From assembly GCA_003559095.1 (NCBI GenBank), contig PWMW01000421.1, forward strand, positions 1 through 33,570: a stretch of DNA of 33,570 nucleotides, written 5' to 3'. The stretch comes from Clostridiales bacterium (GTDB lineage Bacteria; Bacillota; Limnochordia; Darwinibacteriales; B1SED10-159). The position numbers and the translations under genes are program-made. How positions within the stretch are numbered: the first letter of the stretch is position 1; each line of letters opens with the position of its first letter. The notes under the pieces are model-generated. The model made no database searches. It was not told the origin of the DNA and saw only the letters and a program-made list of their open reading frames with translations. This document shows positions 3,945 through 29,933 of this stretch, in pieces.

Positions 3945-3981
3945 CCAGATCCAGCCCAGGCTGAAGAAGGAGTTGTTAACG

Positions 3982-26756: not shown

Positions 26757-27626
26757 TTAGTCCAACTCGATGCCAGAAAACCTGCGAAAGGCGTCCATAC
26801 TAACTTTGATACCTTCCAACTCGCCTAAGGCACTGTGGTCTTGCTCCAGAATGATGTAATCCAAAGCGGGCATCTGCGCACCCTGGTTGATGATATCCTG
26901 AATGGGCAGAATACCTGTGCCGATCTCGGTGAAGCACTGGGGATCCACGGTGGTCATGAAAGTTTCCATGGTGATATCCTGTTCGATGTCCACGAGACCA
27001 TCATACATCACCAGCGGTTGGACCGCATTTTCCGGGAAGTCCTTTTGGTGCAGGAGGATAACACGGTCCTGGTATGTGTCCATAACAGAACGGGGGTCCT
27101 GCCCGCCGCGAAATGCCCAGTACGTGTCAATTTCGAGGAATACCAGTTCGGGATCGGTGTTCTCCATGAGCAAATCGAAGACGCTTTTGCCGCCGAAGAA
27201 CTGGAACTCCTGGAAGTGATTGTGATAATAAAACTGGAGGCCGCGGGATTTGCACAGTTCGCCGACCTCGTTGAAGGCGTCCGCTAAGCGCCGCACGTGG
27301 TTCACATCGCCATAAGGGAAGAACGCCATGGAACAGCCGATTCGTGCGTTACCCAGCTCTTGGTGATAGTCCAACACTGGCCCCAAGGAATCCGACTCCC
27401 ACGGATGGACGTGGCAGCCAACGATGGTCAGGCCGAGATCATCTAAGCGGCGTTTCATCTCCTGGGCTGAGAGCCCAAACCCGACGCCGGGGTCCTCGGT
27501 GGCGTTATGATTTGCTGCTTCCAGGTACTTATAACCGGTATTGGCAACATACTCCAGGGTACCGTTGGGATCCTTTTGCAGGCTTTCCCTTACAGAGTAC
27601 AGCTGCAGACCCACTTTCAAAGCCAT
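26757..27626 (-). CDS. Sugar phosphate isomerase/epimerase family protein
   Basis: This TIM-barrel protein of the AP-endonuclease-2-like superfamily has about 289 residues. LKVGLQLYSVRESLQKDP opens the barrel, and the expected metal ligands appear in LQFYYHNHFQEF (His), FLEIDTYWAFRGGQDP (Glu/Asp), ILLHQKDFPE (His) and FTEIGTGILP (Glu). Members isomerise or epimerise sugars or inositol derivatives. I choose ATG 27626, with AGAAGGGA about ten bases upstream; the frame extends to 27659 without a ribosome site. It stands alone, convergent with the flavodiiron gene. The exact substrate is not apparent, though Gfo/Idh/MocA enzymes in the window often act with such proteins. Confidence 0.9.
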   Translation of the reverse strand: MALKVGLQLYSVRESLQKDPNGTLEYVANTGYKYLEAANHNATEDPGVGFGLSAQEMKRRLDDLGLTIVGCHVHPWESDSLGPVLDYHQELGNARIGCSMAFFPYGDVNHVRRLADAFNEVGELCKSRGLQFYYHNHFQEFQFFGGKSVFDLLMENTDPELVFLEIDTYWAFRGGQDPRSVMDTYQDRVILLHQKDFPENAVQPLVMYDGLVDIEQDITMETFMTTVDPQCFTEIGTGILPIQDIINQGAQMPALDYIILEQDHSALGELEGIKVSMDAFRRFSGIELD

Positions 27627-27926
27627 CACACAACATCCCTTCTGCGCTAAATTTGGCATTTAACCCTCTATTTCGTGTCTGGGAATGCAAATCCTTTTTC
27701 TTGACCGAGAACGGAAGTTGGGTCCATCTCCAGGCGGAGCTAAAAATGCTCCTAAAGGCTGTTATGCAAAATTGGCGTCAGCAGTACAATGAAATCGAGC
27801 CAAGAAACTGCACGCTGGTGTGACCACTGCCGGACGTACGGCAGGTGCATACACAGCCGGGTCCTTGGCGGGAAACAACGAGACGGCGATGCGGAAGCAT
27901 CAGCTGCATCCAGGAGGTGAAAGACT

Positions 27927-28037
27927 ATGTGGGACGTTAGTATCGAATACGCTTCCAAGACTCGCTACAACGAGATCTGCGCCGAACGTGACCAGATTCG
28001 CTTGGCCAGCAAGTGCCGGACGTTGAAAAAAGGCTAA
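27927..28037 (+). CDS. Small protein, 36 residues
   Basis: This frame has an ideal ribosome site: AGGAGG at 27912-27917, nine bases before the ATG. The product starts MWDVSIEYASKTRYNE and is rich in charged residues, with two cysteines at 18 and 30, and ends in a basic RTLKKG. It is probably a soluble helical peptide. It is followed 30 bases later by a second 36-codon frame with an equally good site. I do not recognise it. Coding is inferred from the ribosome sites and the shared terminator. Confidence 0.55.
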   Translation: MWDVSIEYASKTRYNEICAERDQIRLASKCRTLKKG

Positions 28038-28067
28038 GAATTGGGAACCAAGGAGGTGGACAAAACC

Positions 28068-28178
28068 GTGTGGAATGAGCATGAAAAGGGGCACGTGCGG
28101 CCCTATCATATCGGCCTGTATCAGGATACAGAACAGGAACGCACCAGCAAAGCTGGTTGGAAGGGAGTGGCTGAATAG
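28068..28178 (+). CDS. Small protein, 36 residues
   Basis: The start is GTG 28068, 11 bases after AAGGAGG at 28050-28056. The product begins MWNEHEKGHVRPYHIG and ends WKGVAE; it is hydrophilic and rich in Glu, His and Gly. It has the same length and the same Met-Trp beginning as its neighbour but little other similarity. An intrinsic terminator starts inside its last codons, which fits the end of a short dicistronic transcript. It is unrecognised, and expression is inferred. Confidence 0.5.
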   Translation: MWNEHEKGHVRPYHIGLYQDTEQERTSKAGWKGVAE

Positions 28179-28197
28179 CCTGGCTCCCTTCTTTTTT
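28161..28197 (+). terminator. Intrinsic terminator of the small-ORF transcript
   Basis: AAGGGAG (28161-28167) pairs with CTCCCTT (28184-28190), with an inner GGCT/AGCC stem, and is followed by C and six T residues. It overlaps the end of the second small ORF. Confidence 0.88.
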
Positions 28198-28242
28198 GTC
28201 TCCGGTACAATGCCAACGGCTGCTTTGGAGGCTTAATGTTGG

Positions 28243-29529
28243 CTAGGGTGCAAGACGGTGTCGGTCTCTGGGAAACAGGGATGCTTCTCGCACATTGCTG
28301 CGACCAGCCAGAAGAGCCGTCAACCGCTCAAGGCCGATGGCCAACCCGCCATGGGGCGGCATACCATAGCGAAAGCACTCCAGATAGTGTTGGAACGACT
28401 CTGGTGCTAAGCCGCGCTCGTTGATGGCCGCCTGCAGTTGCTGGTGATGGTGAATGCGCTGCCCACCCGTGGTGATCTCCTGTCCGCGGAACAACAGGTC
28501 GAAGCTGGCTGAGCCGCCATCACCTTTGGGCATGGTGTACATAGGGCGTTTGTGCAGCGGATAGTTGGTGATGAACACAAACTCACTCTGCCACTGTTCT
28601 TGGGCATAACGGCCCAGCATACGTTCGGCTTCGGGATCAAGGTCGTCGCTGAGATCCGTGCGCCCATACTCCTGGCGGAGAATGTCCAGGGCTTCGTTCA
28701 TGGTCAGATGCGGAATGGCGTCACCGATGACAGGTAGATCCAGACCCATGGCACCCACCAGGTCTGCCTGGTCTTCTTGCAGCTGGCTGAGTATGAAGCG
28801 CAGCAGCCTGGTCTCCAGGTTCATGATATCGAACTCATTCTCAATAAAGGCCATCTCCAGATCCAAACTGACATATTCGTTGAGGTGCCGCGCGGTGGCA
28901 TGGCGCTCCGCACGGTAGACATGACCCACTTCGTAGACTCGCTCAAAACCAGCTCCAACCAAGGTCTGCTTGTAAAACTGCGGACTCTGGGCCAGGAACG
29001 CTTTCCGTTCGAAATACTGCAGAGCAAATAATTCCGTGCCACCTTCTGTGCCTCCGGCCACCAACTTGGGAGTAAAGACCTGCAAAAACCCCTCCGCATC
29101 CAGGAACGTTTGAAAACCTCGAACGAGGGCGCTTTGCAGGCGAAACAGCCGCTGGTTGCTGGAATGGCGCAAACTGAGAGAGCGGTGGTTGAGCTGGGTA
29201 TCCATGCAGGCCGACAACTGGGGAGTATTGAGCTGTAGGGGCAGAGGCTCGGCTGTGTTCAATTGTTCAATGGACTCACACCAAACCTCAAAACCCCCTG
29301 GGGCCCGGGGATCTTCCACGACTCGACCACTGATGTGCACAACACTCTCTGTGGTCAGGTCCAAGTCCTTGAGGATATCATTGTCAACGACCACCTGCAC
29401 AGTACCGGTGCGGTCCCGAAGTAATATGAAGTTCACCTGACCGAGGCTGCGGATCCGCTCAACCCAACCCATGAGGTTGATCGAGGCGTCCTTCCAACGG
29501 CCGATCTCTTGTACATACACACGTGACAT
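28243..29529 (-). CDS. aspS: Archaeal-type aspartyl-tRNA synthetase (likely non-discriminating)
   Basis: This class II synthetase of 428 residues is the short archaeal-type AspRS (AspRS2), lacking the bacterial insertion domain. The N-terminal OB fold (INLMGWVERIRSLGQVNF) binds the anticodon. The catalytic core has GGTEGGTELFALQYF, AFLAQSPQFYKQ, VYRAERHATARHLNE (motif 2) and GGLAIGLERLTALL (motif 3). In the anticodon domain Pro77 (RAPGGFEVW) lies where, by memory alignment, non-discriminating enzymes have Pro and discriminating archaeal ones Lys. It may therefore charge both tRNA(Asp) and tRNA(Asn), with the Asn identity made later by GatCAB, which is not in this window. ATG 29529 follows GGGGGAG. 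A T-box leader with an Asn-type specifier lies upstream. Confidence 0.93.
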   Translation of the reverse strand: MSRVYVQEIGRWKDASINLMGWVERIRSLGQVNFILLRDRTGTVQVVVDNDILKDLDLTTESVVHISGRVVEDPRAPGGFEVWCESIEQLNTAEPLPLQLNTPQLSACMDTQLNHRSLSLRHSSNQRLFRLQSALVRGFQTFLDAEGFLQVFTPKLVAGGTEGGTELFALQYFERKAFLAQSPQFYKQTLVGAGFERVYEVGHVYRAERHATARHLNEYVSLDLEMAFIENEFDIMNLETRLLRFILSQLQEDQADLVGAMGLDLPVIGDAIPHLTMNEALDILRQEYGRTDLSDDLDPEAERMLGRYAQEQWQSEFVFITNYPLHKRPMYTMPKGDGGSASFDLLFRGQEITTGGQRIHHHQQLQAAINERGLAPESFQHYLECFRYGMPPHGGLAIGLERLTALLAGRSNVREASLFPRDRHRLAP

Positions 29530-29575
29530 GGTACTCCCCCTTTGAAGTGGTTCTTCTGCGGCTGTAACGGACGAC

Positions 29576-29606
29576 AAAAACCCCCGGCGCATAGTGCGCC
29601 AGGGGC
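29576..29606 (-). terminator. T-box terminator 2
   Basis: On the minus strand CCCCTGGCGC and GCGCCGGGGG form a stem with a five-base loop, followed by TTTTT. It lies about 47 bases ahead of the synthetase start and just after the second T-box sequence. Confidence 0.87.
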
Positions 29607-29682
29607 GAATAGATCGCGGTGCCACCCTGATTAACTCCTCTTGCTGCGGCGGTTGGTCCACGAAGGTGCGAAAAGGGTATAC

Positions 29683-29717
29683 AAAAAAGCTCTCGTCCGC
29701 CTTGGGACGAAAGCTTT
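29683..29717 (-). terminator. T-box terminator 1
   Basis: On the minus strand a 13-bp stem (29705-29717 with 29686-29698, one mismatch) is followed by a run of six T residues. Uncharged tRNA bound to the first T-box sequence would prevent this hairpin from forming. Confidence 0.85.
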
Positions 29718-29933
29718 CGTGGTGCCACCCAAATTAACCCCGTGAGGAGTTCACTCTAGCCCGGATAACGGCGGGGCCCGGCGGCCTTTTTCATGGGGCC
29801 GCAGCTTCGGGGTGTTCTTCGATCTTGGGCTCTCATCGGGCTCCCACCGTCCCCGATTCGCTGTGCAGTTACGCCAAGAACTACTCTCCCCTGCATCGCT
29901 GCTGCGTAGTGGATGTCGCTGTTAATACTGACA

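Follow-up and report, generated by a model that had tools for sequence, protein, structure and literature searches.

Two 36-codon frames between an isomerase gene and aspS

The window, a stretch of 33,570 nucleotides from a Clostridiales bacterium, carries two consecutive 36-codon frames on its forward strand, just as the first-pass annotation had described: ORF1 at 27927–28037, which starts with ATG and encodes MWDVSIEYASKTRYNEICAERDQIRLASKCRTLKKG (36 aa), and ORF2 at 28068–28178, which starts with GTG and encodes MWNEHEKGHVRPYHIGLYQDTEQERTSKAGWKGVAE (36 aa). The strong ribosome sites reported ahead of both were found as well, with AGGAGGTG (27912–27919, forward strand) preceding ORF1 and AAGGAGGTGG (28050–28059, forward strand) preceding ORF2. 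A terminator had also been proposed to overlap the second stop, and folding of the RNA around this point bore that out. The intrinsic terminator (28159–28197, forward strand) overlaps the final codons of ORF2 and its stop, and consists of a stem at 28159–28192 with a T-run after it (−22 kcal/mol, z −3.5, equalled by none of 200 shuffles); an equivalent hairpin covers the last codons, specifying Lys-Gly-Val-Ala, in four homologous loci. A strict terminator scan of 27600–28300 reported none, probably because the stem has a 2 nt bulge. Rfam returned nothing for the same interval and, at the homologous loci, a weak miRNA match well below the cut-off.

The window's own genome (G000) was compared with one genome of the same genus (G001) and a third genome of the family (G002). 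In G001 both frames are present in the same order and between the same two flanking genes, together with both ribosome sites and the terminator of the operon. Identity between the window and G001 is 69–71 % for ORF1 and 66–67 % for ORF2, and third codon positions are the commonest place of change in each (differences at positions 1/2/3 of 9/6/15 and 8/5/12, respectively). The first-pass annotation had looked to substitution ratios in relatives as a check on the frames: these are intact in G001, with a dN/dS of 0.14 for ORF1 (Fisher P 8e-5) and 0.24 for ORF2 (P 0.004). The terminator may account for part of the C-terminal conservation of ORF2, as its left arm encodes Lys-Gly-Val-Ala. Judged by these sequence comparisons, ORF1 and ORF2 are real, unannotated protein genes under purifying selection, and the idea of a dicistronic transcript for two small proteins is supported by their conservation, the ribosome sites, the terminator and the promoter described below. 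Both products are strongly hydrophilic (GRAVY −0.78 for ORF1 and −1.37 for ORF2) and have no hydrophobic segment, the best 15-residue mean being below zero in each. AlphaFold2 predicted a single helix for ORF1 (mean pLDDT 81), and its prediction for ORF2 was unconfident (pLDDT 55).

Upstream of ORF1 lies a divergent sugar-isomerase-like gene, which specifies a xylose-isomerase-like TIM barrel, and downstream of ORF2 is the convergent aspS, encoding an aspartate--tRNA(Asn) ligase (28243–29661, reverse strand; NCBIfam PRK05159). The spacing between these two genes is about 610 bases in the window and in G001, versus 178 bases in G002 (hand-counted from conserved starts), where they are adjacent with no small frames. 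As the isomerase–aspS pair exists in G002 without it, the ORF1–ORF2 operon is accessory, and the genes on either side are not its partners. This observation, along with the location of paralogous operons elsewhere, speaks against the suggestion that the small proteins are regulators linked to a neighbour. The ORF1 profile matches 3 of 72 genomes of the class, two of which we take, from sample names, to derive from soda-lake sediment; among 398 genomes of the phylum it finds its own genome and one weak partial match. Just upstream of aspS, a T-box leader (Rfam RF00230, 104 bits) occupies 29700–29905 on the reverse strand of the window, and the ligase itself is a non-discriminating enzyme by NCBIfam. 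Positions 3973–26658 form a dense carbohydrate-use region that contains xylose-isomerase-like, FGGY kinase, Gfo/Idh/MocA oxidoreductase, GH36, GH38, GH32 and PfkB kinase genes.

A multi-copy family of small helical proteins

ORF1 has a paralogue on contig C22 of its own genome (E-value 2.4e-6). This contig and C495 of G001 each carry a paralogous operon in which an A-type frame (MTNFGFEQALAQQH...) precedes a B-type frame that is homologous to ORF1, and the genes adjoining these operons are other than the isomerase and aspS. On contig C236 of G002 there are four A–B pairs in a 341-base tandem repeat (L027, 296–1534; 3.6 copies, 87 % matches), every unit of which possesses its own promoter and A–B pair; this array is a recent amplification. 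Both frames of the window had been said to begin with Met-Trp, a feature that extends to most ORF1 relatives (seven of eight rows, the other starting MS; six of eight if the MWQ/MWG variants are set apart) and does not extend to ORF2 of G001, which begins M-T-W. That the A and B frames constitute one family is probable only: pairwise shuffle tests between them were mixed, hhalign returned a probability of 4 %, and their kinship rests on an ungapped sequence motif and on the shared operons.

A wide profile was assembled from the A and B frames of the paralogous operons, ORF2 and two further frames (L101 and L102). At E-values up to 0.5 it has six matches in G000, seven in G001 and 11 in G002, some of them weak, and it also finds longer relatives that were not part of its input, which in G000 and G001 adjoin an ECF riboflavin-transporter gene, are similarly placed in G002 and occur once in a further genome (G037). 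The E-values of ORF2, L101 and L102 with this profile are circular, as these frames were included in it. In leave-out tests with the A/B profile, four of the longer relatives scored above 1000 of 1000 shuffles, whilst L101 exceeded all but 33 and L102 all but 45 of 1000. For ORF2, scored with a profile from which it had been left out, 201 of 1000 shuffles did as well; its membership of the family is consequently not supported, and its kinship to ORF1 is unproven.

The members that adjoin the gene for the S-component of the ECF riboflavin transporter (L131, 1245–1962; L130, 820–1399; L129, 3878–4060) are 53–64 aa in length, with two to three in tandem in G000 and G001 and one in G002. These loci and the single frame in G037 have in common with the A and B frames the N-terminal motif A-x2-[RHY]-x3-L-x3-[AST]-x3-R, and the wider-family proteins are longer than those of the A and B types, at 39–64 aa. 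At their C-termini, the A-type and longer proteins have basic, aromatic or leucine-rich stretches with the potential to bind membrane. ORF1 and ORF2 lack these and so may be the soluble partners.

No relative of the small proteins above the cut-off was found in Pfam, NCBIfam, PHROGs or the PDB. We also considered and rejected a viral origin (two IMG/VR scans with family alignments yielded no confirmed relative) and a plasmid origin (tblastn with one distant relative gave no plasmid match). ORF1 thus belongs to an undescribed multi-copy family of 33–64 residue helical proteins in this lineage. The consulted portions of the literature on LiaR boxes and regulons, on LiaH, LiaI and PspA, and on Lia and two-component systems of Limnochordia do not describe this family, nor do they describe a LiaH-free Lia regulon of micro-proteins.

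The promoter and its inverted repeat

The promoter of the ORF1–ORF2 operon spans 27723–27790. It includes a conserved box in the −35 region, CTGTTA (27759–27764, forward strand), that is shared with the other family promoters, and a −10 hexamer, TACAAT (27785–27790, forward strand), which follows the box after 20 nt in all eight family promoters. The arrangement CYGTTA-N20-TA(C/G/T)AAT is common to eight of the eight readable family promoters from three genomes. CYGTTA at this spacing is not a standard sigma-A −35 element, and a standard promoter scan does not detect the promoter of ORF1–ORF2. The pattern CYGTTA-N20-TANAATGA matches exactly at nine places in the three genomes, of which eight belong to family operons; the ninth, on contig C186, falls inside a 422-codon frame and was discarded as a promoter. 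Conservation extends for approximately 40 bases further upstream of CYGTTA, a part unseen at C22, as that operon is cut by the contig end.

Within this upstream part is a LiaR/CesR-like 16 bp inverted repeat, TCCATCTCCAGGCGGA (27723–27738, forward strand), followed by an A-rich tract. The repeat agrees with nine of the ten fixed positions of the lineage pattern TCNGNCTNNAGNCNGA and with 11 of 14 positions of the published TCAGHCTNNAGDCTGA, and it recurs in the same column of the other family promoters and of the liaFSR promoter. We tabulated 16 sites, comprising the eight used for training the promoter model described below and eight of its 19 other listed matches (of the 11 left out, one is inside a long frame and the others are partial or weak, or have no visible −10); all have 8 to 10 of the ten fixed positions, at 45–46 bases before the −10. 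Eight of ten is reached by 1.1 % of shuffles, in a test that is partly circular as the pattern was read off the same sites.

The consulted part of PMC4447274 gives the CesR box as TCAGHCTnnAGDCTGA, and reports that LiaR of Streptococcus mutans also needs a flanking MTMA4 stretch, for a site of 25 bp as opposed to the 16 bp repeat alone, and that it does not bind its own promoter. Scored without tuning against this box, the window site has 11 of 14 (2.6 % of shuffles as good), two liaF promoters have 12 of 14 (1.0 % and 0 % of shuffles), and the other family promoters have 10 or 11 of 14 (1 to 10 % of shuffles), in the same column except for one. A score of 11 of 14 is not rare, as 20 such sites exist on the two strands of the window, and in most sites the lineage repeat differs from the published box at the third and 14th positions, where it is richer in G+C. 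Accordingly, the argument for LiaR draws on the sharing of the element and the constancy of its position, and not just on the box. A perfect palindrome, TCGGTCTCGAGACCGA, was also seen in G002 before a flavodoxin-like reductase frame (C221, 2981–3039; L089), with no recognizable −10 at the usual distance.

We then used a promoter model, R1, built from the plain sequence of the eight family promoters only, with liaF left out. In four genomes, with up to 150 candidates scored in each, and at E-values up to 10, it has at least 27 matches, which form a lower bound for the regulon, and the eight training sites rank first. The best of the 19 listed non-training matches (E-value 1.3e-5) is the promoter of an operon on contig C191 of G000, the first gene of which encodes LiaF (Pfam PF09922, 98 bits; LiaF-like_C, LiaF-TM) and the next two a HisKA_3 kinase and a receiver-GerE regulator, i.e. 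liaF-liaS-liaR. In G002 (contig C35) LiaF and the regulator were recognized by Pfam with a kinase frame between them, and the liaF promoter again matches R1 (E-value 0.26); liaFSR was not seen in G001, a genome that is 79 % complete. The best E-value in a more distant genome (G003), among the matches listed, was 0.076.

Eight listed non-training matches have E-values below 0.05. Six of these precede a frame of the same orientation by 10 to 80 bases, the frames specifying LiaF, a 46-aa protein, two family-like small proteins, a DUF2807/DUF4097 protein and an MFS-like exporter; of the remaining two, one precedes a membrane-protein-like frame by 187 bases and the other falls within a long coding frame. 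The two family-like small proteins occupy orthologous places beside Hsp20-like genes. From reading their sequence, we take neighbouring frames to be glutamate dehydrogenase, thymidylate synthase, Hsp20 and esterase genes. MFS-like exporters are targets in two genomes, with the orthologous G001 gene (Pfam MFS_1) matching more weakly. The 46-aa target, on contig C474 of G001 (L100, 5257–5397, reverse strand; E-value 1.7e-5), has a strong ribosome site, and its product combines a single hydrophobic segment with a charged, coiled-coil-like tail, a layout that recalls PspB or LiaI. No LiaR-like promoter was present in the fetched wider-family loci beside the ECF transporter gene. A search for PF04012 (PspA/LiaH) was negative in all three genomes and positive in nine of 14 control genomes.

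A putative envelope-stress regulon and its alternatives

Together, ORF1 and ORF2 form a compact operon, encoding two small cytosolic proteins, that has its own stress-type promoter and its own terminator. On promoter alignment, it has a control element in common with liaFSR, and we infer that LiaR is the protein that binds it. The explanation that we favour, with some confidence, is that ORF1 and ORF2 are micro-proteins belonging to an envelope-stress regulon under LiaR control, where they may take the place of LiaH. Envelope damage would activate LiaS–LiaR, phosphorylated LiaR would bind the repeat and induce both this operon and the paralogous ones, and the short helices would bind the membrane under stress, or stabilize it, or assist other proteins at that site. 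A membrane-protecting action is a conjecture by analogy, the role proposed being that of LiaH/PspA, which are apparently absent from these genomes.

Several features connect this arrangement with LiaIH/LiaFSR of Bacillus subtilis and CesSR/LiaSR of lactic acid bacteria, including the liaF-liaS-liaR operon, an inverted repeat of LiaR/CesR format near an A-rich tract upstream of targets, and, as in the Lia system, a DUF4097/DUF2807 protein and a small membrane protein among those targets. In the consulted parts of the B. subtilis work, LiaG carries DUF4097 (PMC9239133), and LiaRS chiefly induces liaIH, with LiaI anchoring LiaH at the membrane (PMC9239133, PMC3567932). Unlike LiaIH of that organism, no LiaH/PspA was found here in three genomes, and, unlike the Lia regulons in the consulted portions of the literature, the targets include multi-copy, soluble, helical proteins of 33–62 residues. 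Likeness to the PspA/IM30 family (LiaH, PspA, Vipp1) is a possible analogy only, in that both would be helical, soluble and linked to envelope stress; PspA/IM30 proteins have about 220 residues and no sequence relation to those described here. A bolder and doubtful version is that LiaFSR drives a LiaH/PspA-free response in which the 33–62 residue helical micro-proteins assemble on damaged membrane, partly anchored by the small single-pass membrane protein, and replace a PspA/ESCRT-III-type assembly. If true, a core envelope-stress response would have been reorganized around micro-proteins overlooked by gene finders, providing a natural test of how little protein protects a membrane. The promoter signature would make the regulon searchable in uncultured bacteria, and there would be a lead to function for a family without Pfam or NCBIfam annotation.

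LiaR systems often autoregulate, which, together with the CesR/LiaR format of the palindrome and the reach of the shared element to the liaFSR promoter in two genomes, argues against the best-surviving alternative, that another factor (a NarL-type regulator or unusual sigma factor) controls both the small genes and liaFSR, with the likeness to the LiaR box being coincidental. We consider this possible, if rather unlikely, given the non-sigma-A CYGTTA box at 20 nt spacing, a promoter that the standard scan misses and a fit to the published box that is moderate; the autoregulation argument is itself tempered by S. mutans, where LiaR is reported, in the part consulted, not to bind its own promoter. 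Much less probable is that these are type I toxin–antitoxin-like repeats or a mobile micro-cassette with no host function, as might be suggested by the patchy presence (including the absence between the same flanking genes in G002) and the array of near-identical units; the lack of a hydrophobic segment, the purifying selection at aligned places and the shared, regulated promoter all disagree with this. The first-pass annotation had raised a two-peptide system, and two short frames in one operon, with tandem amplification in G002, would suit a two-peptide or leaderless bacteriocin or a secreted peptide signal; we regard this as very improbable, as neither strongly hydrophilic 36-mer has a leader or double-glycine site and the immediate neighbours, an isomerase and a tRNA ligase, include no transporter or immunity gene. 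Least credible of all are leader peptides of an attenuator, for which translation alone would matter: the terminator does overlap the ORF2 stop, but with aspS convergent there is nothing downstream to attenuate, and the amino acid sequences of both ORF1 and ORF2 are conserved.
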